64,000 nt of DNA from Lachnospiraceae bacterium 3-1 (GTDB lineage: Bacteria; Bacillota; Clostridia; Lachnospirales; Lachnospiraceae): assembly GCA_000403255.2 (NCBI GenBank), contig KE159572.1, positions 1-64,000 on the forward strand, written 5' to 3'. Below the pieces are notes generated by a model. It did no database searches. It saw nothing but the letters and a program-made list of their open reading frames with translations, and was not told the origin of the DNA. The position numbers were made by a program, and so were the translations under genes. This document shows, in pieces, positions 41,722-61,079 of the stretch. Each line of letters starts with the position of its first letter. Position 1 is the stretch's first letter.

Positions 41722-41770
41722 GTGCAAAGGAGACAAAAAATATAGAAAAAAAATATGCTATTAGTATAAT
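41722..41770 (+). promoter_or_regulatory. RiPP-regulon promoter 1 (24-bp element plus -10)
   Basis: The element at 41722-41745 has C at position 4, A at 10, C at 13 and TAT at 20-22. Its start is 43 bp before the -10 TATAAT (41765-41770). It drives the small gene at 41802 and the first LytTR regulator. Confidence 0.6.
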
Positions 41771-41801
41771 TATTAAAAATATGTGTATGGGAGAAAATAA
41801 A

Positions 41802-41978
41802 ATGGATAAGAGAAAAGAAAAAAGTATTGGTGAAGTTCTTTCAGAACATGAAAAGGAAGTAATAAAAGTATATAGACAGTTGTCGGAAGATAATAAATTG
41901 ACAATAGATATTTTGATTATGAGACTTAGAAAGCATGAACAGGAGGTGATGACTGATGCTGAAAGTGGCAATATGTGA
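41802..41978 (+). CDS. Small helical protein related to Xre-protein C-termini
   Basis: 58 residues from ATG 41802 (GGGAGA upstream). Its core VIKVYRQLSEDNKLTIDILI, then MRLRKHEQ parallels the C-terminal part of the Xre regulators at 63178 (MRLYRSLDRYNRETWVILGK) and 45514-45624, but it has no HTH of its own. It overlaps the LytTR regulator by 23 bp, so they are coupled. It may be an anti-regulator or dimerisation partner; this is inference. Confidence 0.65.
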   Translation: MDKRKEKSIGEVLSEHEKEVIKVYRQLSEDNKLTIDILIMRLRKHEQEVMTDAESGNM

Positions 41979-42675
41979 TGATAACGAAGACTTTACTAAG
42001 AGGATTGAGGAGCATACAGAGCATTTTTCGCATGAAAATAATATAGAGGTAAAAGTTAGTCGCTTTATAAGTGGTCCCCAATTGATGTTATCATATTTTT
42101 ATAAAAAATATGATATAATATTTTTGGATATTACAATGCCAGAAATGGATGGTTTTGAGACTGCAGAGAGAATACGCAAGATAGATTCAAATGTTGTTAT
42201 TATATTTTGTAGTTCATTTTATAATCTTCCAAATTTACAGAAATGTGTACAAGTTGAAGCAAAAGATTTTTTGGGAAAACCTGTGCTATATAGAAAAATT
42301 GAACTGATTTTGAATAAGGTCTACAATAAAAAAATTATAAATGCTGAGGAAAAACTTATGCTGAAAACCCAAGAAGGAATTATTGCATTACAAATTTCCG
42401 ACATTATTTATATGGAAACTGAAAATAAGGCAGTTGTAATACATACAGCAAATAGAAATATTGCTACGTATAAAAAATTATATGAATTTGAGAAAAGATT
42501 GGGAGATAGGTTATTTTATCGTTGTCATCAGGGGTATTTAGTTAATTTAGATTATGTAGAACGAGTACAGGAGGATTCATTGATATTGAAGGAAGAAGTC
42601 ACTATTCCAGTGAGCAAATCCAAAAAGGAAGAACTGCTAAAAAAAATGGCAAAATATGTGGCGTATCAGTTATAA
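41956..42675 (+). CDS. LytTR-family response regulator RR1
   Basis: A 239-residue regulator. The receiver has AICDDNEDF and phospho-acceptor D58 in YDIIFLDITMPEMDG. The LytTR DNA-binding domain is recognisable from IIYMETENKAVVIHT, FYRCHQGYLVNLDYVERVQE and IPVSKSKKEELL. It is AgrA/VirR-like. There is no kinase gene next to it; the kinase at 46343 may serve both regulators. It is a candidate for binding the shared 24-bp element. Confidence 0.92.
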   Translation: MLKVAICDDNEDFTKRIEEHTEHFSHENNIEVKVSRFISGPQLMLSYFYKKYDIIFLDITMPEMDGFETAERIRKIDSNVVIIFCSSFYNLPNLQKCVQVEAKDFLGKPVLYRKIELILNKVYNKKIINAEEKLMLKTQEGIIALQISDIIYMETENKAVVIHTANRNIATYKKLYEFEKRLGDRLFYRCHQGYLVNLDYVERVQEDSLILKEEVTIPVSKSKKEELLKKMAKYVAYQL

Positions 42676-42694
42676 GCATTCTAAGCATAAAAAA

Positions 42695-42718
42695 AGACGT
42701 TTTATACAATGTTTATTG
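42695..42718 (+). promoter_or_regulatory. 24-bp regulon element before precursor A1
   Basis: It contains GACGTTTTATAC, identical to the element before precursor A4, and all invariant positions (C4, A10, C13, T20-A21-T22). The -10 is less clear here (TATCCT at 42739 or TATATT at 42744), so the spacing differs from the other five. Confidence 0.5.
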
Positions 42719-42775
42719 AGAGCAAGAACAAAAAAATTTATCCTATATTATAAAAAACGAAAGGAGGAACGCCTA

Positions 42776-42937
42776 ATGGACAATGAAACAATAAATGAAA
42801 TGGAACAAACAACAAAAGAGTTAGATTTATCTGCTGAAGAAATTCAAGGATATATTGCATGCTCAAATAGAACGCAATATTGCTTGACAGATTGTCCTTG
42901 GCCTTTTGATGGGGCATATTTATCAGGAATTGATTAA
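42776..42937 (+). CDS. RiPP precursor peptide A1
   Basis: A 53-residue peptide with an AAAGGAGG site before the ATG. The acidic leader is about 28 residues (LDLSAEEIQGYIA). The core is CSNRTQYCLTDCPWPFDG, then AYLSGID. The cysteines follow C-x6-C-x3-C with Asp before the third, as in A2-A4. It is directly upstream of radical SAM enzymes RS1 and RS2, its likely maturases. No transmembrane segment or double-Gly motif. Confidence 0.85.
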   Translation: MDNETINEMEQTTKELDLSAEEIQGYIACSNRTQYCLTDCPWPFDGAYLSGID

Positions 42938-42995: not shown

Positions 42996-44135
42996 ATGGA
43001 ATGTACAATATATTTAGCAGAAGGATGTAATTTGAAATGTACATATTGTTATGAAGGAATAGATAAGAAGACGGGGAAAATGGATATAAGAACATTTGAT
43101 CAAACTTTAGCATTTATTATGAAGAACAGAGTGGAAAACGATAAAATACATATTGTATTTTTGGGGGGAGAGCCATTGCTAAATAAACCCCTGTTTTTTT
43201 ATGCGATTAATAAGATTAATTCAGATTACAAAGAAATTAGAGATCAATTCAAATTAGAAATGACAACGAATGGAGTATTTTTAGATGATAATGTAATAAA
43301 GGTTGTAAAGGAAGAAAATATTAATTTATCATTAAGTATCGATGGAGAAGAACATACACAAAAAAGGAATCGACGTTCGGTATATGGAGATGATACTTTT
43401 AGTACAATCAGCAAGAACCTTCAGAAGCTAATTGAGCAGCAGGTTATGTTTAATGTACGCATGACAGTAACATGTAATAATGTGGAAGATATGTACAATA
43501 ATGTTTGTTACTTCTTAGAGAGAGGCGTAAACAGGATTTATATAGCATATAATTATTTTGACAATTGGGATGAGATTAAATTAAAGATTCTTCATGAACA
43601 GATGGAGTTATTGGATTCGTTATATATTCACAATATTGCATTAACGGGTTGTAAAGTTATAAACCTTTATGATTTTAAGTACACTACATTTTTAGCGAAA
43701 AGACCCATTGTATTTTGTTCAGCTGGTACAACAGGGCATTTTGTAGTAAATACAGAGGGAGATATTTATCCCTGTGGCTATGTAGCTAATGACGAAGATT
43801 GGAAAATAGGAACTGTATGGACAGGCATAGAAAAAGAAAAGTTCATGTTCAAGGTAGAGAAATCTGTAAAAAAAATACATGAATGCCAAAAATGTGAGAA
43901 AGCATTTACTTGTATGTCTACACGATGCGGTTTCCTTAATTATAAGGCAAGTGGATGGTTAAATAAGCCTGATGTAGCTATATGTAAATTAGAGCAGGTA
44001 TTATATTGGCATAATTTGAAAGTTTTTAATGCATTATACCAGAACAAGTGTCCAAGACTTTTAGAGTATGTAGAAATTGCGAAGCAATATCAACTGGAAC
44101 CTAATGATTGTGTAAAATATATGATAGAAGAGTGA
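42996..44135 (+). CDS. Radical SAM/SPASM maturase RS1
   Basis: A 379-residue radical SAM enzyme. The [4Fe-4S] motif is C11-NLK-C15-TY-C18 and the SAM-binding strand has FLGGEPLL. The C-terminal SPASM-type region has Cys in FCSAGTTGHF, IYPCGY, HECQKCEKAFTC, TRCGF and VAICKLE, enough for auxiliary clusters. AGGAGG at 42984-42989 selects the ATG at 42996 over an upstream in-frame start. It is most similar to RS3 in this window. Expected to install a thioether or C-C crosslink on a precursor; which one is unknown. Confidence 0.92.
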   Translation: MECTIYLAEGCNLKCTYCYEGIDKKTGKMDIRTFDQTLAFIMKNRVENDKIHIVFLGGEPLLNKPLFFYAINKINSDYKEIRDQFKLEMTTNGVFLDDNVIKVVKEENINLSLSIDGEEHTQKRNRRSVYGDDTFSTISKNLQKLIEQQVMFNVRMTVTCNNVEDMYNNVCYFLERGVNRIYIAYNYFDNWDEIKLKILHEQMELLDSLYIHNIALTGCKVINLYDFKYTTFLAKRPIVFCSAGTTGHFVVNTEGDIYPCGYVANDEDWKIGTVWTGIEKEKFMFKVEKSVKKIHECQKCEKAFTCMSTRCGFLNYKASGWLNKPDVAICKLEQVLYWHNLKVFNALYQNKCPRLLEYVEIAKQYQLEPNDCVKYMIEE

Positions 44136-44142
44136 TATAAAA

Positions 44143-45207
44143 ATGTATTCGATAACATTAGAAGTAAATCAAATATGTAATTTTAGTTGTGATTACTGCT
44201 ATCTGGGAAAATTATCTAGTAAGAGAATGGATTTTGTGACGGCTTATCAGGCAATGGAAATAGCATTTTTAAATGCACAGAGACATGCAGATCGTATGGT
44301 TTGGATTGACTTTGTAGGAGGAGAGACTTTGCTAAGCTATGAATTCATACGAAAAGTATCTGATTGGATTGATTTAGAAGCACAAAAAAGAAATTTGGCA
44401 GTTAAATATTCTATTACAACAAATGGAAGTATTATAAATCAAGATATTTTAGAGTGGCTTATTCGCAAGAAGGTGCAGGTGAAAATTAGCATTGATGGAG
44501 GAAAAGAAGTACAAGATAAAAATCGTAAATATTGCGATGGAAGTGGAACACATGACAAAATAATTGATAATATTGCTCAATTTCATGAGTACGAGAATAG
44601 AACTAAGATGCGTATGCAAGCAACACACGTTGTAACGAGAAACAATTATGAAGATTTATATAATAGCGTCAAATATCTAGTAGAGGATCTAGAAATGCAA
44701 GTGATAGATTCTGCACTAGATTTGTCTGTAGAATGGAATTATGAACAGTTGGACTTTATAGCTAAAGAATGGGAAAAGGTTATAGAATACAATTTGATGA
44801 GAATTCATAAGGGAAAGCCTTTTATGTGGGGACTCATAATAGATATGCAACAATATTTTGCACCGTCTGTATGTAAAGGTTGCGGTGTCGGAGCCATACG
44901 AATTTATGTGAGGACTGATGGAAGTATCTATGGGTGTGCATCTAATTTAACAGAGACGGGTTATCTTGGAGATGTAAAGGGCGGATTGATTATTCAGAAG
45001 GTAAAGCATTATTTGGGTAATGAGCAAGAATGTTTGAAATGCAATCATTGTATTTTCAAGAGAAAGTGTTTAGCAAAAATTTGTTTGATGAATAGAACTA
45101 GGCAGGAAAATGGAGACGAAATACCCAATTGGGTGATGTGTTATTTAGAGGGAAAAAAACAGACATTGTGGAATAAATATAAAGAATACATAAGAATACT
45201 TGTATAG
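44143..45207 (+). CDS. Radical SAM/SPASM maturase RS2
   Basis: A 354-residue radical SAM enzyme with C12-NFS-C16-DY-C19, GGET in place of GGEP, and SPASM cysteines in CKGCGVGAI, YGCASNL, CLKCNHCIFKRKCLAKIC and MCYLEGK. It starts 7 bp after RS1, so the two are co-translated and probably act on A1. It is paralogous to RS4 (both begin MYSITLEVNQ / MYTLSLEIIN and share CYLG). No N-terminal RRE domain is visible. Confidence 0.92.
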   Translation: MYSITLEVNQICNFSCDYCYLGKLSSKRMDFVTAYQAMEIAFLNAQRHADRMVWIDFVGGETLLSYEFIRKVSDWIDLEAQKRNLAVKYSITTNGSIINQDILEWLIRKKVQVKISIDGGKEVQDKNRKYCDGSGTHDKIIDNIAQFHEYENRTKMRMQATHVVTRNNYEDLYNSVKYLVEDLEMQVIDSALDLSVEWNYEQLDFIAKEWEKVIEYNLMRIHKGKPFMWGLIIDMQQYFAPSVCKGCGVGAIRIYVRTDGSIYGCASNLTETGYLGDVKGGLIIQKVKHYLGNEQECLKCNHCIFKRKCLAKICLMNRTRQENGDEIPNWVMCYLEGKKQTLWNKYKEYIRILV

Positions 45208-45288
45208 TGAGTTAAATTTATAAATAATACCACTTATCTATGTAAAATGCCTTCGGAAGTATGTTATAATAGTATCGGAGGTATAGAG

Positions 45289-45624
45289 ATGAATGTTATA
45301 CGTCAATTAAGAAAAAAGGTCGGCATTTCACAAAAAGAATTAAGCATCCAGCTGAAACTTAGTCAACAATCAATTAGTAGAATAGAAAACATGGATAGTT
45401 TGGATACTGTTCCTGGATATCTATTATTACGGTTTGCAGATTTTTTTAATGTTACAATTGATAAATTGATTGGGAAAGACGAGCTGGATTTGTCTGAAGA
45501 ACAAGAAGACTAGATGTGGCAGATATACAGACAATTGGATTCTGTCAATAGGGAAACTTTATTAGTTATGGGAAGAAGGTTATTTGATACGCAGGAATCC
45601 GATACAAAGATAAGTGGTAGGTGA
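45289..45624 (+). pseudogene. Xre-type regulator split by an in-frame TAG
   Basis: ATG 45289 (GGAGGT upstream) encodes a 74-residue HTH protein: VIRQLRKKVGISQKELSIQL, then KLSQQSISRIENMDSL. It ends at TAG 45511-45513. The next codon is ATG, and the same frame continues 36 residues: MWQIYRQLDSVNRETLLVMG, then RRLF. This matches the C-terminus of the intact paralogue at 63178. The stop therefore separates the HTH from its conserved helical tail. It may be a mutation, or two coupled products. It precedes RR2 and the kinase. Confidence 0.75.
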
Positions 45625-45630: not shown

Positions 45631-46341
45631 GTGATAAAAATTGCAATATGTGATGATGAAGAAGTATTCTTGAATACTCTTGAAAGAATGATTAGGAATT
45701 ATGAGAAGACTATAAAGGAAAAATTATTAATAAAAAGATATACCAAGCCATTATATTTAATGGATTCACTGGCAGAAGATTTTCAAGTATTTTTCTTGGA
45801 TATGCAGATGCCTAATATGGATGGATTTGAATTGGCTAGGGTAATAAGAAAATATGATGAAAAATCAACAATTATTTTTGTGACATCCCATAGAGAGTAT
45901 GGGTTAGGGTGTTTCGAATTTGAGCCAGCGAATTATATAATTAAACCTATTACCCAAATTCAAGTTGATTGTGAATTGAATCGTGTTATACGAAAAATTA
46001 ATTCAGGAGAACGAGAATATATTGGAGTGAAAAGTAACGCAGGTTTCATGAAATTGTTTCTTTCAGATATCCAGTACATTGAGACGGTAGATAGGAATGT
46101 AGTATTCCATACGGTTAGTAAAGGAGATGTAATAGGACGATTTAAGATGCAGGATTTGGAAGTCCGTTTAGAAAAATATGCGTTTTATAGATGTCATAAC
46201 GGTGTGATTGTTAATTTGGATTATGTTGATTATGTCCAAGAATTTATGATTGTGTTGGTAAGTGGAGAAAAAATTTATACGACAAAATCTAGGAAAAAAG
46301 AACTGATTAAAAAATTAGCGGAACGGACTGGAAGTGCATAA
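45631..46341 (+). CDS. LytTR-family response regulator RR2
   Basis: A 236-residue AgrA-like regulator starting at GTG 45631 after GGTGAGC. The receiver has AICDDEEVF and D57 in FFLDMQMPNMDGFELA. The LytTR domain has IQYIETVDRNVVFHT, FYRCHNGVIVNLDYVDYVQE and TTKSRKKELIKKLA. It is clearly paralogous to RR1. It is followed at once by its kinase, so this is the cognate pair; probable targets are the 24-bp elements upstream of the cluster genes. Confidence 0.93.
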   Translation: MIKIAICDDEEVFLNTLERMIRNYEKTIKEKLLIKRYTKPLYLMDSLAEDFQVFFLDMQMPNMDGFELARVIRKYDEKSTIIFVTSHREYGLGCFEFEPANYIIKPITQIQVDCELNRVIRKINSGEREYIGVKSNAGFMKLFLSDIQYIETVDRNVVFHTVSKGDVIGRFKMQDLEVRLEKYAFYRCHNGVIVNLDYVDYVQEFMIVLVSGEKIYTTKSRKKELIKKLAERTGSA

Positions 46342-46342
46342 A

Positions 46343-47656
46343 ATGAATATAGAGATATTGAAAGATTTATTTTCTGCCTTTAATATTATATTACTTTTTT
46401 ATATATTAGGCGAGAGAATGGAAAAAAGAGTAACCAAGAAATTGAGACTTGTTTTGGGTCTTGTTATTGCAATAATGCTTTCAATTATAGAAAACAGTTT
46501 ACATACACATATTATCTATAGTTTTATTTTAATAACCATAATTTCTTTGAGTGCAGGAAGAATTATATGGAAATATAGTTTGAAATACTGTTTTATTATA
46601 AATTGTATTTTTCTTTCCTTTATATCATTGGCACAGGTGCTTGCGTGTACGATTGAATATATACAAACAGAAAAATTTTTATTGGAACTTCCAGACAATT
46701 ACCAAATACAAATGTTAATAATGTCTGAGATTATTATTACGATAGGTGTATTGATTAGTGTTAAATTAATCCGGAAAATACCTACGCAAATTAACACCCT
46801 AAATTTTATCACTATTGTAATTCCAAATCTGATAAGTATAATTGTAATGTTACTATTAGGGGATAAGTTATATTATAGTACGTATATGTTTACTAATATA
46901 GAGTCTGTGATAACGATTATGCTAGCGGGTTTTGTTTTGATTATAGGAAGCATGTGCAATGTTGTGTTATTAGAATATTATCTAAATGCAAAACAGATTG
47001 AAAGTGAGAAGAAATTGCAGCTAAAGGAAATGAGTCTTCAATATGATTATTATGTAAGGTTGGAGAGAGATATGGATGGTGTAAGGCGTATTGCACATGA
47101 TATACGAAATCATTTGGAAGCTTTACGAGGAAGCAAGGATGAGAAGGAGAAAGAAGAATATATTGGCAGTATAGAGAATAAATTGGATCGATATGAGAGT
47201 TATTATAACACAGGAAATGCTTTTATTGACAGTATATTGCATAGGAAAAAAATAGATGCAATAGAGCAAGGGATTGAACTAAAAATTCTTGCGGATTTAC
47301 GTCCATTTGCTAATATGAAAAATGAGGATTTATGTGTTGTTATCTCAAATATTTTGGATAATGCTTTAAGAGAATGTGAATTGAGGAAAAAAGAGGAGCC
47401 AGGAAAAGAAAATTTAATTCAATTACGAGCTGGTAAATTTAGAGGTTTTTTATCAATTGTATGTGAAAATAGTATAAGAAAAAATCAGGCAAAATATGTT
47501 GTATCAAGTAGGGAAATCCAAACAACAAAGCCAGATAAGAGCCATCATGGATATGGTATTAAAAATGTAAAAAATATAGTACGAAAATATGGTGGAGAAT
47601 ATTCTATACAAGTGAGAGATGGTATGTTTTGTTTTTCAATTATTGTACCTTTGTGA
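46343..47656 (+). CDS. AgrC-like sensor histidine kinase
   Basis: A 437-residue kinase with about six hydrophobic segments in the first 200 residues, then a GHKL kinase domain. The phospho-acceptor is in RRIAHDIRNHLEALRG, followed by VISNILDNALRECELRK and HGYGIKNVKNIVRKYGG. This layout is that of peptide-pheromone sensors of the AgrC/ComD type (HPK10). No agrB/agrD genes are present, so a mature cluster peptide may be the signal. The start is ATG 46343, or GTG 46334 overlapping RR2. Confidence 0.9.
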   Translation: MNIEILKDLFSAFNIILLFYILGERMEKRVTKKLRLVLGLVIAIMLSIIENSLHTHIIYSFILITIISLSAGRIIWKYSLKYCFIINCIFLSFISLAQVLACTIEYIQTEKFLLELPDNYQIQMLIMSEIIITIGVLISVKLIRKIPTQINTLNFITIVIPNLISIIVMLLLGDKLYYSTYMFTNIESVITIMLAGFVLIIGSMCNVVLLEYYLNAKQIESEKKLQLKEMSLQYDYYVRLERDMDGVRRIAHDIRNHLEALRGSKDEKEKEEYIGSIENKLDRYESYYNTGNAFIDSILHRKKIDAIEQGIELKILADLRPFANMKNEDLCVVISNILDNALRECELRKKEEPGKENLIQLRAGKFRGFLSIVCENSIRKNQAKYVVSSREIQTTKPDKSHHGYGIKNVKNIVRKYGGEYSIQVRDGMFCFSIIVPL

Positions 47657-47781: not shown

Positions 47782-48624
47782 ATGAAGAAAAAACTAAAAA
47801 TCATGGTATCGCTAATAGGAGTTTTAGCGATGATTTCAGCTAATGTGGTATTTGCAGCAGAATCACAGAAAGTTCCCCAGAAGATTCAAGAAATAGCAAA
47901 TGGTTCCGACGATATCTATGGTGATGGTGCACCTCTGGAGCATGTTGAAAATGGGGATGAACGTTTTCAATCGGGCGGTATTGATCATACTCATCAGTAC
48001 ATAGTAGCAAATGCACTTACCATTTTGAATAATGATAAAGGGGGAAGCTTATTTAATGATGAATTAAATGCAAGAATATTAATGGAGGCGACAGATTGGC
48101 CTGATAAGGTTGGAAATGAGACGGACTTTGGTACATTTGCAGGGCACTTTTATGATCCAGATACCGGAAAAAACTGGATGGGACAGACATCACCAACTGC
48201 CCGGACAAGAGCAGAGACATATTATGAGAATGCAGTTATCATGTATCAGGCTGGAGATATAAATAGGGCAATGGATTATCTTGGAAAAGGAACGCACTAT
48301 GTATCTGATTTGAATGAACCGCACCATGCTTCAAATTTAACGGCGGTAAATAGTAATCATTCAGCGTTTGAAAAGTATGTAGACAAAAATAGAACATCTT
48401 ACACGATTTCAGGTAATTCGTTTTCTTCTCAAATCTATAATGATGCAGTTTCTCTATCAGTAGGAGATTTGATGTATTCAGCTGCGAAGCATGCAAAAGG
48501 ACTGGTTGATATGGCACAAAATGAAAGTACATATTCAAATGCAGGAAATCAATCAGTACAGTATGCAATTAGAACAGTCACACAATATATCTATAAATTT
48601 GGAAAAGAAGTGGGAATTTACTAA
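47782..48624 (+). CDS. Secreted zinc-dependent phospholipase C
   Basis: 280 residues with a signal peptide (about 1-26, ending VVFAA). It matches the bacterial zinc-metallophospholipase C family: H69-T-H71, D105/D108, H122 in AGHFYDP, H172-x3-D176, H182 in HYVSDLNEPHHASN, and H193-x3-E197. Nearly all zinc ligands of Bacillus cereus PLC have counterparts. It lacks the C-terminal lipid-binding domain of Clostridium perfringens alpha-toxin. It carries the same promoter element as the RiPP genes, so it is probably co-induced. AGGAGG precedes the ATG. Confidence 0.9.
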   Translation: MKKKLKIMVSLIGVLAMISANVVFAAESQKVPQKIQEIANGSDDIYGDGAPLEHVENGDERFQSGGIDHTHQYIVANALTILNNDKGGSLFNDELNARILMEATDWPDKVGNETDFGTFAGHFYDPDTGKNWMGQTSPTARTRAETYYENAVIMYQAGDINRAMDYLGKGTHYVSDLNEPHHASNLTAVNSNHSAFEKYVDKNRTSYTISGNSFSSQIYNDAVSLSVGDLMYSAAKHAKGLVDMAQNESTYSNAGNQSVQYAIRTVTQYIYKFGKEVGIY

Positions 48625-48798: not shown

Positions 48799-48833
48799 GA
48801 ATTATATTATTACATTTAGGAATAGGAGGACAT

Positions 48834-49997
48834 ATGTACAATTTTACATTATATATGACAACAGATTGCAATTTTAAATGCCAGTATTGTTATGAAGACT
48901 ACCATAACCATTATCAGTTGAATGAAAAAACACTTGTGGACTCGTTGGAGTTTATGATGAATTATGGGGATAGAGGGAAAATCTTGCTTGATTTTTTGGG
49001 CGGTGAGCCTTTGCTGAAGAAAGATTTAATTTACCAGGCAGTAGCCTATATCAAAGATAATTATCCGGAAAGGGAAGTAAAGTATTATATTACTACCAAT
49101 TGTTCCCTGATGGATGATCGGTTCATTGCATTTATGAAAGAAAATCATTTTACAGTACGTCTTAGTTTTGATGGGAATAAGGAAACCCATGATTTGAACA
49201 GAGTTGCGAAAGATGGAGTTTCTTGCTATGACAAAATTTTTGAGAATATCATGAAGGTAAAGGATAGTGGATTGAATTTTTCTGTAAGAATGACGGTCAC
49301 AGAAAATACCATTCCGCATATGTTCGAAAACATCTGTTACCTGCATGAGCATGGTCTGGATAACATCTGTATGATTATGGATGTATATTTAAAAATATCT
49401 GATGAACTGAAGGTAGACTTTGAAAACCAGGTAGAACAAATTTTACAGTACTATTTGGATGAGGCAGCAGCGGGCAGAGCTTTTACCATAGATCAATTTG
49501 ATGGAAAAATGTTTAATATGCTGTGTGATTTTGGAAATTGTTTTAGCATGTGCGATGCCGGAATTGGAAATTTCAAGATATTTCCGAATGGTCAGATATA
49601 CCCATGCGGTTTTCTTACAAGTAATGAAAAATATTGTATAGGAAATATTAAGGAAGGCGTTGATATAAGAAAGTCAAAATCAATAGCAATGTCTAACTTT
49701 GATAAAACCGATCCGAAGTGTAAGGGATGCACAATTCGAGATTTTTGTCATGGTATGAAATGCGGATATATGAATTTTATCAATACAGGGAAAATTAATG
49801 TACCATCGGATGCAGAGTGTATTTTTGAACACATCTTTTATAAGGCAATGGTGCAGATCCTTGAATATTATTTGCAGCAGCCGATTGAAATAGTTAGAGA
49901 TAAATTAGGAATGTATGTGGGCTATATCCAGGAGAAATATTTAAAATTAAGTGAGTTCGGAGAGAAGATTGCCAAGAGGTTAAGAGATGAAATGTAA
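48834..49997 (+). CDS. Radical SAM/SPASM maturase RS3
   Basis: A 387-residue radical SAM enzyme with C12-NFK-C16-QY-C19, FLGGEPLL, and SPASM cysteines in MLCDFGNCFSMCDAG, YPCGF, CKGCTIRDFCHGMKCGY and AECIFEH. It is paralogous to RS1. It is the first gene of the RS3-ABC-S8-RS4-RS5 operon and has its own regulon promoter. AGGAGG precedes the ATG. It overlaps the exporter gene by 11 bp. Substrate most likely A2/A3; crosslink type unknown. Confidence 0.92.
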   Translation: MYNFTLYMTTDCNFKCQYCYEDYHNHYQLNEKTLVDSLEFMMNYGDRGKILLDFLGGEPLLKKDLIYQAVAYIKDNYPEREVKYYITTNCSLMDDRFIAFMKENHFTVRLSFDGNKETHDLNRVAKDGVSCYDKIFENIMKVKDSGLNFSVRMTVTENTIPHMFENICYLHEHGLDNICMIMDVYLKISDELKVDFENQVEQILQYYLDEAAAGRAFTIDQFDGKMFNMLCDFGNCFSMCDAGIGNFKIFPNGQIYPCGFLTSNEKYCIGNIKEGVDIRKSKSIAMSNFDKTDPKCKGCTIRDFCHGMKCGYMNFINTGKINVPSDAECIFEHIFYKAMVQILEYYLQQPIEIVRDKLGMYVGYIQEKYLKLSEFGEKIAKRLRDEM

Positions 49998-51648: not shown

Positions 51649-51670
51649 GTAGTAGAAGGGAGGGAAGCTA

Positions 51671-52663
51671 ATGAAAATTGGTGTCTTAGATACAGATGGG
51701 GATTTTAAACATAGATTTTTTAGAGATAAGAAACTAGATATAAGAAGAAAAAGTACCAATGGAGAATATAGAAAATATGGTATTGGATTTACTCATGGAG
51801 AAATTGTTTGTTCAATGATTTTAAAAGAAAATCCACAAGCGGAAATTATATTATATCCTATTATTTCGGAGAATATGAAATGTTCTGTCTTGGAATTGAT
51901 TAGGGGAATCGAATCACTAATTGAATCCGGTGTTGATATCATTAATTTAAGTGTAGGAGATGAATATAATTACCACCCAGAACTAGAAAGTATCTGCAAA
52001 GACGCTCAAAGACAAGGGATACTAATAGTAGCAGCACATTCAAACAGGAACGTATATGCAACATATCCGGCTGATTTATCATTTGTAGTAGGTGTAAAAT
52101 GCACTGACAAAAACTCACCTGAAAAAATTATGTTGTTCGATGAAAGTCGCAATGAAGTTATCTTCTCTTCAAGCTATTTTTCTTTGTATCATTTGGAAAT
52201 TCCCAGATTGATACAGGGAAATAGTTTTGCATGTGCCAAAATTTCAGGATTATTGAGTTGGCATAAGGATAGTTTTAGAGAAGCGTTAAAGAATTTAGAA
52301 CATAGTTTTTTGAATCATTATTATCCATGTGAAACTTTAAAACAAAAACAATGCTTATTTTGTACCAATCGTCCGAATGATCAGATGGAGCAGAGATTTA
52401 TAAATGAAGTAACAAATACGATTGCAAATTTTACAATTGAGGATATGGATTCAGAAATGGTTAGACAATTGCACGACTGGGAAATACTTTTTATAGATTG
52501 CGATAGTTATCAGGCTGTTTTACCATATAAAGATAAAATACGAGATTTTAAAATTTTGCACCAAGAAAAAGAAATTGTTTTACGGTATCCATTATTTAGT
52601 TTGGAAGAACGTATGAATTTAGATTTACAATACAGAGTTTTGATTCATCAATTTTTTATATGA
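51671..52663 (+). CDS. Subtilisin-like (S8) protease, intracellular type
   Basis: 330 residues. Catalytic triad positions are visible: D7 in IGVLDTD, H42 in FTHGEIV, S185 in QGNSFACAKISG (variant of GTSxA), plus oxyanion N125 in AAHSN. There is no signal peptide or propeptide. After about residue 210 comes a family-specific C-terminal domain of unknown role. It lies between the exporter and RS4, so it is the best candidate for precursor leader cleavage in the cytoplasm. AGGGAGGGAAG precedes the ATG. Confidence 0.85.
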   Translation: MKIGVLDTDGDFKHRFFRDKKLDIRRKSTNGEYRKYGIGFTHGEIVCSMILKENPQAEIILYPIISENMKCSVLELIRGIESLIESGVDIINLSVGDEYNYHPELESICKDAQRQGILIVAAHSNRNVYATYPADLSFVVGVKCTDKNSPEKIMLFDESRNEVIFSSSYFSLYHLEIPRLIQGNSFACAKISGLLSWHKDSFREALKNLEHSFLNHYYPCETLKQKQCLFCTNRPNDQMEQRFINEVTNTIANFTIEDMDSEMVRQLHDWEILFIDCDSYQAVLPYKDKIRDFKILHQEKEIVLRYPLFSLEERMNLDLQYRVLIHQFFI

Positions 52664-52674
52664 GGAGGAATAAA

Positions 52675-53781
52675 ATGTACACACTATCATTGGAGATAAT
52701 AAATAAATGTAATTTGAATTGCACATATTGCTATCTTGGCGAAAAGAAAAATACCTATATGAGTGTAGAAAGTGCTAAGAAGGCAGTTGATATAGCAGTT
52801 CATGAGGCACAAAAGCAATATGATAAAATGCTGATAGTTTATTTTATTGGGGGAGAGCCTTTGATGGCTTTTGAAACAATGAAAAGTATAGTTGATTATG
52901 CAAATGGAATTGGTGAAAAGAATGGTCTAAAAGTAAAATTTAGCACAACGATAAATGGAACGTTGATAACAAGAGAAAATGTAGAATTTTTTATTAAAAA
53001 TGATTTTGAAATAAAGGTAAGTATAGATGGTCCCCAATTTGTACACGACTTAAATAGGCATGATTACGTAGGGAATGGAAGTTATAACAGAATTTTGGAA
53101 AGACTACCTTATTTAAGAGAGTATGAGGAAAAAACGGGAAAGACAGTTGCGTATGCCCATGTAGTAACAAAGAATAATTATCAGTTTTTTGAACAGAGTT
53201 TTCGGTTTTTACTAGATTTGAAGGCTGATAAGATTGAATCAGGTATAGATCATTATTGTCAGTGGGAGCCATCAGAAATATTAGAATTGAAGGAACAAAT
53301 AAGACGCACTTTCAATTTGTTTAAGGAAGAAGTTAAAAAGAGGGGAAAAAGCTTCTATTGGAATTTATTTGAGCAACACCTGCAAGCATTTTTAGTGCCT
53401 TGTGACTTTTATGCCTGTAAAGCTGGTTTAAATAATGTTTATGTAGCAACGGATGGTAATATCTACACATGTATAGAGTTACCAGAATTTAAGATAGGGA
53501 ATGTAAATGAAGGATTAGATGTTATGCAGATTAGAAAAATTGCATATAGAGAAGATGTTAAATATGAAACATGTAAGAATTGTAAATATGTTAAGCATTG
53601 CAAGACACGAGGATGTCAAGCATCTAATTATGAAATACATAGAGATATTTACCATCCAGTTGAGGTGAGTTGTCATGTGAATAAAACAATGTTTGATTTA
53701 TTCAACGAAAATTTTACAGAACAGCAAAAAGAAGCGATGAGAGATATTTTAAAAAGGAGAAGAGATTATGGAAAAAAATAA
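52675..53781 (+). CDS. Radical SAM/SPASM maturase RS4
   Basis: A 368-residue radical SAM enzyme with C12-NLN-C16-TY-C19, FIGGEPLM, and SPASM cysteines in CDFYACKAG, YTCIELP, CKNCKYVKHCKTRGCQ and SCHVNK. It is paralogous to RS2. The start is ATG 52675, placed by AGGAGG overlapping the S8 stop; a 5-codon-longer frame begins inside that site. It overlaps RS5 by 14 bp. It belongs to the A2/A3-processing operon. Confidence 0.92.
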   Translation: MYTLSLEIINKCNLNCTYCYLGEKKNTYMSVESAKKAVDIAVHEAQKQYDKMLIVYFIGGEPLMAFETMKSIVDYANGIGEKNGLKVKFSTTINGTLITRENVEFFIKNDFEIKVSIDGPQFVHDLNRHDYVGNGSYNRILERLPYLREYEEKTGKTVAYAHVVTKNNYQFFEQSFRFLLDLKADKIESGIDHYCQWEPSEILELKEQIRRTFNLFKEEVKKRGKSFYWNLFEQHLQAFLVPCDFYACKAGLNNVYVATDGNIYTCIELPEFKIGNVNEGLDVMQIRKIAYREDVKYETCKNCKYVKHCKTRGCQASNYEIHRDIYHPVEVSCHVNKTMFDLFNENFTEQQKEAMRDILKRRRDYGKK

Positions 53782-55030
53782 TATACCCGAATTTGAAAAG
53801 ATAATACGGAATGAAAAAGTTGTATTAGTTGATCCTGTATCTAAAGTTTATTTGGGTGTAAGTAATAAAATTGCAAACAACCTTGATAAACAAGAAGTTA
53901 AAGAATTTCTTTATCCTATATGGAAAAAGCAAGCTTCTATTCAACAGAAAATTATTCAGCGACATGAAAAATTTAATACGGTGTATTTGATGATAACCCG
54001 TAAGTGTAATATGAATTGTGATTTTTGTGCAATTAATGCTAATCATGGAATGAACTTAGATGCAGAAATAAATATAGATGATATTAAGAAAAAAATAATT
54101 CCGTTTTTAAACGAATGTAGTCCTCATAAATTTATAATAACAGGGGGAGAACCGTTTGTTAAGGATAACATATTACAAATTATAGAAGAAATTCATAAAG
54201 GAACATCTATTCCTATTATAGTACAAAGTAATGGAATTGCGGTTAATACAAGTGTAATAGAGAAATTAAAAGGCAAGGTAAAAGAAATTGATTTCAGTAC
54301 AAAACATATGTTTGGAGAAATGGGAAAGGCAGATGAGTTAATTAGCAATATTGAAATATGTCAACAATCTGGAATTGATGTTGTTTTAAGTTTTATCTAT
54401 GAAAAGAGCAATAAAAAGGAATTATATGAAGTAATAGATATCGCAGCAAAATATAATACGGGGTTGTTAGTTAATATTGTGGCACCAGTAGGGAGAGCCA
54501 GGGAGAAAGTAGATTTTTTGACAGATTTAGATAAGATTCAAATGAATTTAGATATTGCAAAATATATTTATGACCATGATTATGAAGAAAAGGCACTATG
54601 TGGTGTTATTGATTCACACTTGCAAGTTCGAAATGCTTGCGGAGGGTATGGAAAAGTGTTAGCAATTTTTCCGGAGGGTAATATATATATGTGCCAGTGC
54701 CTAGAAAATGATACGTATAGATTAGGTAATGTTTTATATGATGAGGTAGAAACTATAGAAAATAATCTGTGCGATAAAATGGGAGAGAGAGTAATTCAGA
54801 AGACCTTTTGTGTAGACGATAAAGATATATGCAATAAATGTGAATATAGATATTTTTGTACTGGAAAGTGTCCGACATCGGTAGATAAGGATGATTATAC
54901 ATGTTACTTTGTAAAAAAAATGATAGATTATCAGCTTTTTTATAAAAAAATGGGAACGCCAAAGAAAGTTTTAGAAGAGTATATTACTTATATGAATCAG
55001 TGTCTTTTAGAATATACTAATAGAAAATAA
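53768..55030 (+). CDS. Radical SAM/SPASM maturase RS5 with N-terminal RRE-like region
   Basis: A 420-residue enzyme. Residues 1-70 precede the cluster and contain KVVLVDPVSKVYLGVSNKIA, which looks like a PqqD-type RiPP recognition element (inference). The radical SAM motif is C80-NMN-C84-DF-C87, with ITGGEPF. SPASM-type Cys lie in NACGGYGK, YMCQCLEN, ICNKCEYRYFCTGKC and TCYF. It differs from the RS1-RS4 pairs and is the only one with such an extension, so it may recruit the peptide for the others. It is directly upstream of A2 and A3. Confidence 0.9.
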   Translation: MEKNNIPEFEKIIRNEKVVLVDPVSKVYLGVSNKIANNLDKQEVKEFLYPIWKKQASIQQKIIQRHEKFNTVYLMITRKCNMNCDFCAINANHGMNLDAEINIDDIKKKIIPFLNECSPHKFIITGGEPFVKDNILQIIEEIHKGTSIPIIVQSNGIAVNTSVIEKLKGKVKEIDFSTKHMFGEMGKADELISNIEICQQSGIDVVLSFIYEKSNKKELYEVIDIAAKYNTGLLVNIVAPVGRAREKVDFLTDLDKIQMNLDIAKYIYDHDYEEKALCGVIDSHLQVRNACGGYGKVLAIFPEGNIYMCQCLENDTYRLGNVLYDEVETIENNLCDKMGERVIQKTFCVDDKDICNKCEYRYFCTGKCPTSVDKDDYTCYFVKKMIDYQLFYKKMGTPKKVLEEYITYMNQCLLEYTNRK

Positions 55031-55199: not shown

Positions 55200-55331
55200 A
55201 TGATGTCTGAAAAAAATAATATTGAATTAGAGGAACAGGAAGTAAATACATATGGTGAATGTGGTGATCCTAGATATGGATGTCTAGTAGATTGTTTAGA
55301 TATGTCACCGTGGCTTACAGCAACAAATTAG
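55200..55331 (+). CDS. RiPP precursor peptide A2
   Basis: 43 residues from ATG 55200 (or 55203) after GAGGAGG. The leader is acidic and ends EEQEVNTYGE. The core is CGDPRYGCLVDCLDMSPWLT, then ATN, with C-x6-C-x3-C. It is closely related to A4 (shared DCLDxSxWLT) and A3 (shared VNxYGxCGDP). It stands immediately downstream of RS4 and RS5. Too short and variable to be found by ordinary gene callers. Confidence 0.88.
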   Translation: MMSEKNNIELEEQEVNTYGECGDPRYGCLVDCLDMSPWLTATN

Positions 55332-55342: not shown

Positions 55343-55489
55343 ATGAATACACAGCAGAAGGAAAAGGACGAGTTGCAGAATTTGTCAATCGAAGAAGTTA
55401 ATGTCTATGGTAGTTGTGGAGATCCCAAAATTCATTGTTTATATGATTGCTTCTTCTGGAATGACTGTTTTATAACCTGTAATAACTAG
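55343..55489 (+). CDS. RiPP precursor peptide A3
   Basis: 48 residues from ATG 55343 after GGAGG. The leader contains LSIEEVNVYGS. The core is CGDPKIHCLYDCFFWNDCFI, then TCNN. It has the common C-x6-C-x3-C plus two extra cysteines, so it could carry more crosslinks or a different topology. It is 11 bp after A2, the same transcript. A longer upstream frame starting at 55280 overlaps A2 and is not credible. Confidence 0.88.
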   Translation: MNTQQKEKDELQNLSIEEVNVYGSCGDPKIHCLYDCFFWNDCFITCNN

Positions 55490-57641: not shown

Positions 57642-58307
57642 ATGGAAATTTTAAAAACCCAGGATTTAAAAAAGTATTATGGAACAGAGCCAAATATAGT
57701 ACGTGCAATTGATGGCATTAATTTTAGCGTTGAGGAAGGAGAGTTTGTCGCTGTAGTTGGCACATCAGGTTCAGGAAAGTCCACACTGTTGCATATGGTT
57801 GGTGGATTAGATATACCAACTTCAGGAACAGTATTTGTAAGGAATAGAAATCTTTCTGAATTGAATGATAATGAACTGACAATTTTTAGAAGAAGAAATA
57901 TAGGTTTTATTTTTCAAAATTATAATCTTATTCCAACACTTAATGTGTATGAAAATATTGTATTGCCGGTGAATTTAGATGGTAATACAGTAGATGAAAA
58001 TTTCATGCAAGGCATTGTTTCAATGCTTGGTTTAAGAGATAAGTTATTATCTATGCCTAGTAATTTGTCAGGAGGTCAACAACAAAGAGTAGCTATTGCA
58101 AGAGCATTAGTCACGAAACCAGCTATAGTTCTAGCGGATGAACCAACAGGGAATCTTGATAGTAAAACTAGTTCTGATGTTTTGGGATTATTACAGCAAA
58201 CAAGTCGAGCATATAATCAGACAATGGTAATGATTACACATAATAATAAAATTGCTCAATTAGCCGATAGGATAATACGCATTGAGGATGGGAAAATAAC
58301 TGACTAA
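57642..58307 (+). CDS. ABC transporter ATPase (BceA/MacB type)
   Basis: A 221-residue ATPase with GTSGSGKST, LSGGQQQRVAIARAL, IVLADEPTGNLD and ITHNN. It is of the same class as the one at 35182 but clearly divergent and much richer in AT codons. AAAGGAG precedes the ATG. It pairs with the permease 17 bp downstream. Inside the RiPP locus, a role in self-immunity or peptide sensing is plausible. Confidence 0.94.
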   Translation: MEILKTQDLKKYYGTEPNIVRAIDGINFSVEEGEFVAVVGTSGSGKSTLLHMVGGLDIPTSGTVFVRNRNLSELNDNELTIFRRRNIGFIFQNYNLIPTLNVYENIVLPVNLDGNTVDENFMQGIVSMLGLRDKLLSMPSNLSGGQQQRVAIARALVTKPAIVLADEPTGNLDSKTSSDVLGLLQQTSRAYNQTMVMITHNNKIAQLADRIIRIEDGKITD

Positions 58308-58323
58308 AAGGGGAGGTGAGACA

Positions 58324-60720
58324 ATGTTACAAAATGTAAATGGCAAATTTATCAAGAATCTAGCAAAAAAAAATCTGAAATCTGATAGAATTAGGAATCT
58401 TTTTCTGGTAAGTACAATTTTTTTTGCAGTATGCCTTATGTCTTCGTTGGCATTATATGTTTTTGCAAAATCATATGAGCTTAATAACTTTTTGAGAGGG
58501 AGGTATCAGGCAGCAATAATTAGTATTGATGACGATAAAGTAAAAAATATTTCAAAAGATGAAGACATTGAAGCAATTGGCAAGGAAATGTTTATTGGAA
58601 AAATACGAGTAAAGAATTTTGATACTAGTATTTATTATCGTGATCAAAAGAATATTGAATTAACCTCAACTAAAATATCAGGTTCTCTCCCAAAGAAATA
58701 TAATGAAATAGTTATTTCTGAATCATTATTAAAAAAGATTAATATTCAAAAGGGTTTAAATGATTTAATAAAACTATCATTACCAAATTCTGTGGAAGAT
58801 GAGTATAAAATAAGTGGAATAATAGAAGATGATGAAATTAATCAAAATTATCAATTGCTAATTTCATCTGAGTATTTATATAAGAATTATACCAAAGAAT
58901 TCGTGTACAACGGTCTTATTAGACTAAGGGATAGTAGTGATTTGAAAGCAGAAGAATTGAAAGCGGCAATAATATCATGTTTATCGAAATATGGCATAAG
59001 TGAACAGGACATTGCATTTAGTTCTTCGTATTTTAACAGTGTCGATAATTCTACACGGGATACAATATCAGTCATTGTTTTATGTTTATTAATTGCCTTT
59101 TCGTGTTCATTAGTAATATATAGTATATTTTATATTTCTGTAATTGGGAAGGTACAAGAATATGGGAGACTAAGGCTGATTGGCATGACATCAAAGCAAA
59201 TAAAGAAAATGGTAAAAAATGAAGGTATCTATTTAGCACTACGTTCTATTCCAATAGGAATATTAGTTAGTTGTGTATTAGTTTATATACTTATTCCAAA
59301 TGGGTGGAATTGGTCTAATGTAATAAAGTGTATTTTTGTAGTGACAGTTTTAACCCTATTTACAATACTGCTCTCTATAAGAAAACCTATAAAAATAGCA
59401 TCGTCTATTTCTCCAATTGAAGCTGTCCGTATAGTTACGACAAACAATAGGACTATTGCTGTTAAAGCGAGAAAGAAATGCACCTTTATAACACCTAAAA
59501 TTTTAGCAAAGAAAAATTTCACACAAAACAGAAAAAAGATTATACTAACTATGTTTTCTTTAGGATTCACAGGAGTGTTTTTGATGACAGCAGCAACATA
59601 TTTGAATTCTTTAGATGCTGAGAATATGGCACGTCAGACTTTTGGAGATAGAGAAATAAAAATCTCTCTTGAGTATGATGGAGCAACGGACGACGAAAAA
59701 CAGTATGTTGAAAAGTATACTGATTTGCAAGAAAGTAATCCTTTAAATGAGGATCTTGTAAATAAGTTGTCCGAGAATCCAGCAATCACTGGTATAACAT
59801 CAGTTGAAAGTTGTCAATCCTTTTTTTATTTGCCAAATAATTTAAATGTGGAACGTATGCCCCAGTCTCATATTGGTGGAATAAAGGAAGAAGATATTAG
59901 TAAATATCATGAATATTTAAAAGAAGGAACCATAGATTACGAACAACTTCTTAATAATCACGGTATACTTGTTGATGATAGTGCAGGTATATTAAAACAA
60001 TTTTGCAATTATGATGTTAAACTAAATGATAAAATACAGCTGGAAACAAACACCGGACAAATGATTACCTTTACGGTTATGGGAATTGTTGATTGGAAGA
60101 ATAGCGATTATTCTGGATTTTATTTTGTCATTCCACAGGATTATTTAAAGGAGTTAAAAACTAATGTAAGTAATTTTAATTCCAGATTATTGATTGATAG
60201 TGAGGATGTAAAATCAGCAGAAAAATATATTAAGGAAGAATGCTCATCGTTAAATAATTTGGTTATTGAAAGTTTTTCAACCAGTTTAGAGTATATGCAA
60301 TTAAATATTGACAGATATAAAGGTCCTATATATATATTAGTTTTATTTGTAGGTATTTTTGCGATTATAAACTTAGTTAATACCCTTATGACAAATTTAG
60401 TTTCGAGACGACGAGAACTTGTTATTTTGCGATCGGTAGGTTTAGCGAAGGAACAATTGTTTAGGACACTATGGATAGAATGTTTCTATTATGTTATGGG
60501 AACGATAGTAATTACTTTGACCATAGGATCATTAAGTGGTTATGCAATTTGTTTGATTCTTGATCAAATCGGAATATTTGGTAAATCAAGTTATCACTAT
60601 CCATTTTTAGAAACAATTATTTTTTGTATTGCTTTGTTTTTTATATTAATAATATATTCCTATGTAGCGACTTTTTATTGCAACCGACAGTCTATTGTAG
60701 CAAATTTAAAAAACGATTAA
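58324..60720 (+). CDS. ABC transporter permease (FtsX/MacB-like)
   Basis: A 798-residue FtsX-type permease. An N-terminal helix near residues 24-48 and a large extracytoplasmic domain are followed by a helix cluster at about 245-365, a second domain, and three terminal helices after about 655. GKVQEYGRLRLIGMTSKQIK and SRRRELVILRSVGLAKEQLF are the two coupling segments. GGGGAGGTGAG precedes the ATG. It probably forms an immunity or resistance transporter with the ATPase, regulated by the two-component system at 61131-62859. Confidence 0.9.
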   Translation: MLQNVNGKFIKNLAKKNLKSDRIRNLFLVSTIFFAVCLMSSLALYVFAKSYELNNFLRGRYQAAIISIDDDKVKNISKDEDIEAIGKEMFIGKIRVKNFDTSIYYRDQKNIELTSTKISGSLPKKYNEIVISESLLKKINIQKGLNDLIKLSLPNSVEDEYKISGIIEDDEINQNYQLLISSEYLYKNYTKEFVYNGLIRLRDSSDLKAEELKAAIISCLSKYGISEQDIAFSSSYFNSVDNSTRDTISVIVLCLLIAFSCSLVIYSIFYISVIGKVQEYGRLRLIGMTSKQIKKMVKNEGIYLALRSIPIGILVSCVLVYILIPNGWNWSNVIKCIFVVTVLTLFTILLSIRKPIKIASSISPIEAVRIVTTNNRTIAVKARKKCTFITPKILAKKNFTQNRKKIILTMFSLGFTGVFLMTAATYLNSLDAENMARQTFGDREIKISLEYDGATDDEKQYVEKYTDLQESNPLNEDLVNKLSENPAITGITSVESCQSFFYLPNNLNVERMPQSHIGGIKEEDISKYHEYLKEGTIDYEQLLNNHGILVDDSAGILKQFCNYDVKLNDKIQLETNTGQMITFTVMGIVDWKNSDYSGFYFVIPQDYLKELKTNVSNFNSRLLIDSEDVKSAEKYIKEECSSLNNLVIESFSTSLEYMQLNIDRYKGPIYILVLFVGIFAIINLVNTLMTNLVSRRRELVILRSVGLAKEQLFRTLWIECFYYVMGTIVITLTIGSLSGYAICLILDQIGIFGKSSYHYPFLETIIFCIALFFILIIYSYVATFYCNRQSIVANLKND

Positions 60721-60878
60721 TGAAAATCTTCTGTTTTAAAACAGAGTAAATCCGATTATCGGAATTTGGTTTGAGATAACTTGATTCCTCATAGCATATT
60801 ATTCGCTGATTTTTTAATAAAGGTCTGGTGATAGAAAACAATCAAAATAATTAATTATATCTGAATAGAAAGGAAAAA

Positions 60879-60927
60879 TGACGTTTTATACCCAAAATAT
60901 GTGATAATAGGTGTAATGAGATATAAT
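60879..60927 (+). promoter_or_regulatory. RiPP-regulon promoter of precursor A4
   Basis: The element at 60879-60902 begins TGACGTTTTATACCCAAAAT. The -10 TATAAT is at 60922-60927, 43 bp from the element start. It shares GACGTTTTATAC with the element before A1. Confidence 0.62.
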
Positions 60928-60959
60928 TAAATTATAAATAGATAAGGAGGTAAGCAAAG

Positions 60960-61079
60960 ATGGATCAGTACGAATTACAGAAAGAAGAAGTTAATGTTTA
61001 TTCTGGATGTGGAGAGCCTCGTTTCGATTGCTTTGTAGATTGTCTTGATGGAAGTGCGTGGCTTACAACAGCAGAATAG
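60960..61079 (+). CDS. RiPP precursor peptide A4
   Basis: 39 residues from ATG 60960 after AAGGAGG. The leader is MDQYELQKEEVNVYSG. The core is CGEPRFDCFVDCLDGSAWLT, then TAE, with C-x6-C-x3-C. It is nearly superimposable on A2. It stands alone, 5.5 kb from A2/A3, across an IS110 element and the ABC transporter, with its own regulon promoter and terminator. Presumably modified in trans by the RS enzymes. Confidence 0.87.
   Translation: MDQYELQKEEVNVYSGCGEPRFDCFVDCLDGSAWLTTAE

Follow-up and report, generated by a model that had tools for sequence, protein, structure and literature searches.

A precursor family encoded beside sets of radical SAM enzymes

The stretch of DNA analysed here (the window) comprises the first 64,000 nucleotides of contig KE159572.1 of Lachnospiraceae bacterium 3-1 (C2:1-64000 in a genome of 5,080,585 bases and 27 contigs). 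It carries four short peptide genes (A1 to A4), five genes for radical S-adenosylmethionine (SAM) enzymes (RS1 to RS5), an S8 protease gene and an ABC exporter gene. The system is one of ribosomally synthesized and post-translationally modified peptides (RiPPs) in the broad sense, short precursor genes being conserved near modification, cleavage and export genes: we have found 17 precursors in four genomes, with five complete loci. What we have shown is the gene content, its conservation and the matching lineages of enzymes and precursors; the enzyme types appear to have evolved together with their precursors. With this region, a gut-type clostridial bacterium probably makes small cross-linked peptides of a family that had no name before. 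The core genes are as follows.

42776..42937, +, precursor A1, 53 residues (leader ending EEIQGY, core C-x6-C-x2-D-C, "EGY" subtype)
42996..44135, +, RS1, radical SAM type a, "EGY" sublineage (open reading frame listed from 42906)
44143..45207, +, RS2, radical SAM type b, "EGY" sublineage
48834..49997, +, RS3, radical SAM type a, "VNVY" sublineage
49987..51648, +, MsbA/QhpF-like ABC exporter without C39 domain (Pfam; relatives in the five complete loci)
51671..52663, +, S8 (subtilisin-like) protease (closest NCBIfam model QhpE, below cut-off)
52660..53781, +, RS4, radical SAM type b, "VNVY" sublineage
53768..55030, +, RS5, radical SAM type c (N-terminus longer by ~70 residues)
55200..55331, +, precursor A2, 43 residues (EVNTY, CGDP-x3-C-x2-D-C)
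55343..55489, +, precursor A3, 48 residues (two extra tail Cys, as in G304_3)
60960..61079, +, precursor A4, 39 residues (EVNVY, CGEP-x3-C-x2-D-C)

RS1 probably starts at 42996 (MECTIY...) rather than at 42906.

A first-pass annotation of this DNA had described four peptides sharing a three-Cys motif, with a VN-x-Y leader end and a CG(D/E)P core start in A2 to A4; all four are where it placed them and read as described. The motif C-x6-C-x2-[DE]-C was found in 4 of the 525 window open reading frames (ORFs) of 30-110 residues, which are exactly A1 to A4, and 60 first-order Markov shuffles of the window gave a mean of 0.03 such ORFs (maximum 1). Among 219,111 bases of 14 other loci, it was present in two small ORFs, both in loci chosen for weak precursor-like matches.

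The 17 precursors are distributed between the genome of the window (G000, seven), G304 of the same genus (seven), G372 of another genus (two) and G433, of the genus of G372 (one). Their length is 39-53 residues in the window and 39-63 across the family. The acidic leader ends in EVN-x-Y or E-x-x-G-Y, with a Tyr ahead of the first Cys (C1) in every precursor (by eye). The three core Cys are invariant, the first two being spaced C-x6 in 16 precursors and C-x7 in one, followed by C-x2-[D/E]-C, where the acidic residue is Asp in 16 of 17 and Glu in the other. A tail of 11-14 residues follows in all cases, with Ser/Thr near its end in 17/17 (by eye); A3 and G304_3 have two extra tail Cys in common. 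The conserved spacings are C2-x2-[D/E] and C1-x9/10-[D/E], with one acidic site, and the repeated Cys-x3-Asp/Glu core of PapB-type ranthipeptides is absent. No NCBIfam family matched A1 to A4 at E<=0.01.

A model built without them recovered the two G372 precursors (E=4e-15 and 1.5e-11), and one built without it recovered that of G433 (9e-9); six of the G304 precursors (contig C23) were picked by motif within a locus chosen for its RS4 ortholog. No precursor is more than about 9 kb away from radical SAM genes; the largest distances to the nearest one are ~8.4 kb (G304_1) and 6.5 kb (the first precursor of contig C22 of the window's genome). This C22 locus (~196.3-211.9 kb; L059, L079) encodes three precursors, two of them nearly identical, together with three radical SAM enzymes, an S8 protease, an exporter, AgrB (L059:13557-14195, Pfam), and LytTR and GHKL proteins. 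G304 has an orthologous cluster with six precursors on C23, while its contig C32 carries a single A1-like precursor accompanied by a type-b enzyme. The G372 locus contains two precursors, three radical SAM genes, S8 and exporter genes, an FtsX pair, a kinase/regulator pair and a phospholipase-like gene. In G433, one precursor, three radical SAM genes, the exporter, a phospholipase-like gene and the S8 gene stand in a row on one strand, adjoined by kinase/regulator genes and an FtsX pair. Precursors conserved beside enzymes of this kind, which the first-pass annotation had set as a test of its own proposal, are thus found in other genomes.

The A1 core is closest to that on G304:C32, the A2 core has a better score with G372_1, of a different genus, than with any G304 core, and the G304_1 core pairs best with G372_2. 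Because of the last two pairings, some precursor types seem to be common to different genera, short-peptide pairings being weak.

Three enzyme types and two systems in the window

We have built trees of 32 and 31 radical SAM proteins; the first included three long-branched enzymes belonging to other layouts, in G278, G139 and G304:C20, which were omitted from the second. The references were seven SCIFF maturases over cut-off, the PapB enzymes L169 and L195 over cut-off and L139 just under it, two CcpM over cut-off and one annotated QhpD. The 18 enzymes of the family loci formed three clades: a (RS1, RS3 and four others), b (RS2, RS4 and five others) and c (RS5 and four others). Their support was 96/89, 100/99 and 100/99, respectively, in the first tree, and 99/99, 100/98 and 100/100 in the second, and none of them joined the PapB, SCIFF, CcpM or QhpD groups. 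Type c is the most distant clade of the three; in the first tree, the G139 enzyme joined the c group on a long branch, a placement that the program flagged as doubtful. Types a and b begin at the radical SAM domain, whereas type c carries ~70 more N-terminal residues. All five family loci having an S8 gene and an exporter contain types a, b and c.

The loci with VNVY precursors (window A2 to A4, G304:C23 and G372) parted from those with EGY precursors (window A1, C22, G304:C32 and G433) within all three clades of the first tree. In the second, the split held for types a and b, and the type c of G372 fell on neither side. Exporter identities followed the same split (window-G372 52%, C22-G433 47%, across 27-31%), and that of the protease was weak (39%, 32% and 26-33%, respectively). 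Since enzymes and exporters split along the precursor subtypes, the window reads as two related systems: a main one (RS3, exporter, S8 protease, RS4, RS5, A2 to A4) and a satellite (A1, RS1, RS2). The single RiPP family with five enzymes of the first-pass annotation is supported as a family by the conservation in G304, G372, G433 and the second locus, and its five enzymes are better described as belonging to these two systems.

All five enzymes passed the Pfam PF04055 gathering cut-off and end in Cys-rich tails, as judged by eye and from alignments. Pfam SPASM was over cut-off for RS3 and RS4, sub-threshold for RS1 and unlisted for RS2 and RS5, and RS5 was over the TIGR04085 cut-off. The earlier description of five radical SAM proteins with SPASM-like tails stands for the domain and the Cys-rich tails, the Pfam SPASM assignment being limited to RS3 and RS4.

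The nearest NCBIfam model of RS1 to RS4 was PapB (NF047865), at 167-202 bits, below its cut-off of 340 (RS1 to RS5: 189.5, 167.1, 201.5, 196 and 37.5 bits); RS5 had its best matches with WgkB and ScmE, below cut-off. RS1 to RS4 scored 119.5-144.7 bits on the SCIFF maturase model (TIGR03974, cut-off 425), 115.3-139.7 on QhpD (TIGR03906, cut-off 453) and 91.2-155 on CcpM (TIGR04068, cut-off 500). On RumMC (NF035951, cut-off 720), RS2, RS3 and RS4 had 74.9, 63.8 and 109.9 bits among the matches listed; RS1 and RS5 had no RumMC score among their best 25, the lowest of which are far below 720. True SCIFF maturases score 724-813 bits on TIGR03974, that of the window's genome (L156) reaching 810.

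Proposed maturation pathway and alternatives

The reading that we moderately favour is that of a RiPP system in which the three enzymes would jointly install Cys thioethers, the S8 protease would cut the leader and the exporter would secrete the product. Precedents are the qhp operon, for a radical SAM-S8-ABC set making Cys-Asp/Glu thioethers (PMC7876137, in excerpt), and TrnC/TrnD, for a complex of two radical SAM enzymes (PMC12093266, in excerpt). RS3, RS4 and RS5 would act as a set on A2 to A4, and RS1 and RS2 on A1, perhaps relying on another locus for protease, exporter and type c. Radical chemistry would join Cys sulfurs to carbons of other side chains, with at least one bridge most likely to the invariant Asp/Glu before the third Cys, in the S-to-methylene manner of ranthipeptides and Qhp. 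By analogy, the likeliest first guess would be C2-x2-[D/E] or C1-x9-[D/E] thioethers, the remaining Cys needing other acceptors. One enzyme type may be structural, because the thuricin CD complex strictly needs only one of its two radical SAM enzymes as catalyst (PMC12093266, in excerpt). After cross-linking, the cytoplasmic protease would take off the leader and the MsbA/QhpF-like exporter would secrete the product, probably a multi-peptide bacteriocin and less likely a signal; the FtsX-type ABC pair and the kinase/regulator would protect the producer, and the LytTR/GHKL regulators would control expression. Cross-links, cleavage, export, immunity and activity are what we infer from these genes.

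Several observations weigh against this pathway. There is one invariant acidic position for three Cys, so that Cys-Asp bonds to it cannot explain all Cys; the Ser/Thr near the tail ends could be acceptors. The cut-offs of the PapB, QhpD and SCIFF models are not reached. SCIFF maturases outscore RS1 to RS4 on the PapB model itself (288-299 bits, 7/7 tested), and the solved structure nearest to RS4 is 5wgg (E 2e-33), which we take to be the SCIFF maturase CteB; for both reasons, the PapB similarity of RS1 to RS4 seems a weak pointer only. Pfam found no leader-binding (PqqD-like) domain in the N-terminus of the five type-c enzymes, RS5 included. Finally, genes for a type-c enzyme, a protease and an exporter are missing from the A1 locus itself.

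The low PapB score of RS5 (37.5 bits, with sub-threshold best matches to WgkB and ScmE), and the position of type c as the most distant clade with extra N-terminal residues compared with a and b, would suit a mixed chemistry. Types a and b would then make thioethers, and type c another bond (for instance C-C or C-O at an aromatic residue or Ser/Thr), or it would mainly bind the leader. The cores have no invariant aromatic acceptor, however, and the type-c N-terminal stretch gave no Pfam match to a known leader-binding domain; we regard this alternative as possible, with a probability below even.

The Ser/Thr near the tail end of all 17 precursors (by eye) could also be acceptors in a sactipeptide system, with S-C-alpha bonds of the kind present in thuricin CD and ruminococcin C. 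For thuricin CD, two radical SAM enzymes are known to cooperate (PMC12093266, in excerpt), and two are reported for RumC. However, the PapB scores of RS2 to RS4 (167-202 bits) exceed their RumMC scores (64-110 bits) among the matches listed, the Asp/Glu before the third Cys would have no evident role and, by our own reasoning, three nested bridges from Cys 7 and 4 residues apart would not fit in a tail of 11-14 residues. We consider a sactipeptide system improbable.

Protease and exporter

The S8 triad (Asp7, His42, Ser185), reported earlier as intact, is indeed so, and it is invariant in 6/6 aligned sequences, the window's included. The protein begins directly at the catalytic domain and has no signal peptide (by eye); given this start, it is probably cytoplasmic. 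Its best model was QhpE (NF049966), with 97.7 bits for a cut-off of 165, and the nearest solved structures were cyanobactin-type proteases (E ~1e-6). It was 23% identical over 91 residues to the product of a small unannotated gene after the ABC gene of the Leisingera qhp operon, taken as QhpE; the alignment scored 8 standard deviations above shuffles. The exporter matched ABC_membrane and ABC_tran and gave no C39 match in Pfam, as the first-pass annotation had read it. Both proteins, protease and exporter, were over their Pfam cut-offs.

Neighbouring genes and the signal hypothesis

The following genes surround or interrupt the core genes.

41956..42675, +, LytTR response regulator, upstream of A1 (Pfam Response_reg and LytTR)
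45247..45513, +, helix-turn-helix regulator (Pfam HTH_3)
45631..46341, +, LytTR response regulator
46334..47656, +, AgrC-like GHKL sensor kinase (Pfam HATPase_c_5)
47782..48624, +, putatively secreted zinc-dependent phospholipase C-like protein (PDB match, Bacillus cereus phospholipase C)
55737-56984, -, IS110 transposase, inside the locus (Pfam)
57642..58307, +, ABC ATPase (LolD-like)
58324..60720, +, FtsX-type permease, probable self-protection
61131..62156, -, sensor histidine kinase (the pair with the next gene lies immediately beyond the region of the first-pass annotation and recurs beside relatives)
62179..62859, -, OmpR-type response regulator

The LytTR regulators and AgrC-like kinase named in the first-pass annotation were confirmed by Pfam LytTR matches and by a GHKL ATPase domain in the protein at 46334. 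In the window, A1 has such LytTR and GHKL genes on its flanks, as does its relative on G304:C32, and in the C22 locus AgrB is present as well. This would be compatible with a signalling role of the peptides, detected by the GHKL kinase and LytTR regulators, instead of a bacteriocin role; we find this hypothesis rather unlikely. The FtsX-type ABC pairs, which also lie near relatives of the window locus, resemble self-protection, as do the kinase/regulator pairs of the window, G372 and G433, and up to six diverse precursors per locus better fit an attack repertoire. No AgrB was seen in the window among the proteins scanned by Pfam, which did not include every ORF.

The sequence AAAGGAGG sits just upstream of A1. 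Only A/T-rich words came out when 16 upstream stretches were compared for a common regulatory motif, no Rfam match was found in the window between 38 and 64 kb, and a plasmid collection held no match to the window DNA. Upstream of the locus, the window also contains a DDE transposase (38631-39944, +) and, at 32862-38057, a further regulator/kinase and FtsX-type ABC module (by eye).

Probable phospholipase-like partner and putative cassette edge

The protein encoded at 47782-48624 matched B. cereus phospholipase C in the PDB (E ~2e-15). The His/Asp/Glu spacing of that enzyme, presumably that of its metal ligands, is kept in the aligned part, and the start is signal-peptide-like (by eye). Among 45 genomes, from two genera with G380 added, five have the gene: the four carriers and the genome with a relic; that of G304 is near the end of a separate contig. 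In the sampled family genomes it was found in 5 of 348. An exclusive linkage was rejected, since three of these five holders (G054, G082 and G278) have no radical SAM-like gene in 18 kb; for this reason, the protein is a probable partner of the cluster and not a defining part.

DNA identity between window and G304 was 84-96% in 200-base bins from 48,832 to ~51,350, spanning RS3 and most of the exporter, and 62-72% from 51,554 through the S8 gene, RS4 and most of RS5. The fall, from ~94% to ~66%, is sharp and lies near 51.45 kb, inside the exporter gene (window 48832-54708 vs L075/L076). Protein identities were 92% for RS3, 92% over 426 residues for the exporter, 48% for the S8 protease, 58% for RS4 and 50% for RS5; the reference SCIFF maturase was 89.8% identical between the two genomes. 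Recombination has probably replaced the DNA on one side of this edge or the other.

The sharp drop at ~51.45 kb suggests an exchange of specificity cassettes and belongs to a more daring proposal, unlikely as a whole: the three co-evolving enzymes would form one assembly making a different bond on each of the three Cys of a 40-50-residue peptide, a QhpE-like intracellular protease would release the product, the secreted zinc phospholipase C would act along with it, and the protease-RS4-RS5-precursor block would be the exchanged cassette.

Distribution of the family

Carriers were found in 2 of the 29 genomes of the window's genus and 2 of the 15 of that of G372. In a family sample of 397 genomes, the precursor model at a loose E<=0.5 had matches in 155. 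Among those read, G000 and G372 were carriers and G380 had a decayed copy. Matches in G084, G371, G282 and G263 were discarded as chance, no radical SAM-like gene being present in the 3 kb read for G282 and G263 or in the 18 kb read for G084 and G371. A class sample of 391 genomes yielded no further convincing member, its three weak matches outside the window's genome being in long frames or containing a stop. Decayed EGY-type remains occur in two further genera, in L113 (G380, ~5.2-5.7 kb) and L185 (G113), the latter with no precursor seen in the 12 kb examined. In the samples searched, the family is rare, patchy and confined to one bacterial family; this sparse and patchy distribution suggests horizontal spread and loss of its loci.

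We have also searched the strict DNA pattern Y-x2-CG(D/E)P-x3-C-x2-D-C in a species-genome collection (84,980 species by its description), a pattern that would miss the true precursors of G372, in a collection from which records near the window's own genome may be absent. None of the 26 stretches found was precursor-like: 21 were in one iron-sulfur membrane protein, which we take to be NosR-like, and five in short unrelated frames. The same pattern had no occurrence in viral contigs, where the type-b search gave one weak match. An S8-led search had matches in 61 of 299 family genomes, mostly larger subtilases by frame length; of the six places examined, those in G287, G171 and G282 had no radical SAM-like gene in 14-16 kb, one was the C22 locus of the window's genome, and those in G278 and G139 were S8, radical SAM and exporter layouts of other kinds.

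Three other gene sets were noted on the way. That of G278 (L063:7019-12449) combines an S8 protease, a radical SAM enzyme with TIGR04463 as best model, below cut-off, an acyl carrier protein (ACP)-like gene, a Cys peptide and an ABC exporter (by eye). G304:C20 (L078:8237-12525) carries a different but related cassette, with one PapB-like radical SAM enzyme below cut-off, two near-identical C-x2-D-C peptides, a QhpE-like S8 protease and an ABC exporter. On the Paraclostridium bifermentans plasmid CP124692.1 (L195), a radical SAM enzyme over the PapB cut-off (390 bits) adjoins ABC exporter, kinase/regulator and FtsX-type ABC genes, and no precursor with the family motif was seen in the 9 kb read.

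Comparison with known systems

The open-licence literature searched, in which subscription journals are mostly absent, yielded no description of this family. An unnamed family is no great surprise, since a published radical SAM network lists >250 enzyme clusters (PMC9062424, in excerpt).

PapB, the nearest model for RS1 to RS4, joins Cys to Asp/Glu and accepts Cys-x0-6-Asp (PMC9413430, in excerpt), a spacing given as stricter in the accessible part of a review (PMC8172795). Freyrasin and the family share short precursors containing Cys and Asp. They differ in that three enzyme types in separate clades stand here against the one PapB, and one invariant Asp/Glu, in C-x2-[D/E], against the six C-x3-D of freyrasin. 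The same genome has its own SCIFF maturase, and SCIFF has in common with the family a PapB-like radical SAM enzyme; here, however, the core has three Cys and RS1 to RS4 are far under the SCIFF cut-off. Thuricin CD and ruminococcin C also have more than one radical SAM enzyme per precursor set and several precursors, and they differ in core motif, enzyme families and S8/ABC layout. In TrnC/TrnD of thuricin CD, two radical SAM enzymes were recently shown to act as a complex, only one being strictly needed as catalyst (PMC12093266, in excerpt).

The qhp system, for quinohemoprotein amine dehydrogenase, uses QhpD to form three Cys-Asp/Glu bonds, QhpE to remove a 28-residue leader and QhpF for export (PMC7876137, in excerpt). 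The likeness lies in a single polypeptide being the substrate of a radical SAM enzyme, a cytoplasmic S8 protease and an ABC exporter, and RS4 aligns to the annotated Leisingera QhpD with 25.8% identity over 99% of its length. The family differs in its precursors of 39-63 residues, the qhp substrate being an enzyme subunit, and in its three radical SAM types; among the best matches listed for 20 scanned proteins of the window, none was a dehydrogenase subunit. CLI_3235/CcpM bacteriocin clusters (TIGR04068/TIGR04065) have the radical SAM, S8 and ABC layout with another precursor family and ACP-like genes (by eye). One occurs in the same genome (L168, G000:C23:146000-164000), with two CcpM enzymes of 556 and 576 bits; an S8 protease, an exporter and ACP-like genes were also noted there (by eye). 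Because the CLI_3235/CcpM cluster and the qhp operon (PMC7876137, in excerpt) have it, the S8 and exporter layout is not new in itself.

If thioethers were found, the family would represent a new core motif that escapes the ranthipeptide rule of one mining paper, TIGR03973 (PMC13289728, in excerpt); that rule would miss A1 to A4, since no NCBIfam precursor model matches them. The QhpE-like protease, known from an enzyme-cofactor pathway, is here linked to ordinary peptide products in gut-type Firmicutes. With three enzyme types kept together with matching precursor subtypes in five loci, a division of labour among radical SAM enzymes becomes directly testable on a small substrate, G433 offering the minimal set of one precursor and three enzymes. 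What is distinctive, compared with the known systems, is the triple enzyme set, its match to the precursor subtypes, and the presence of a QhpE-like protease in a peptide system.

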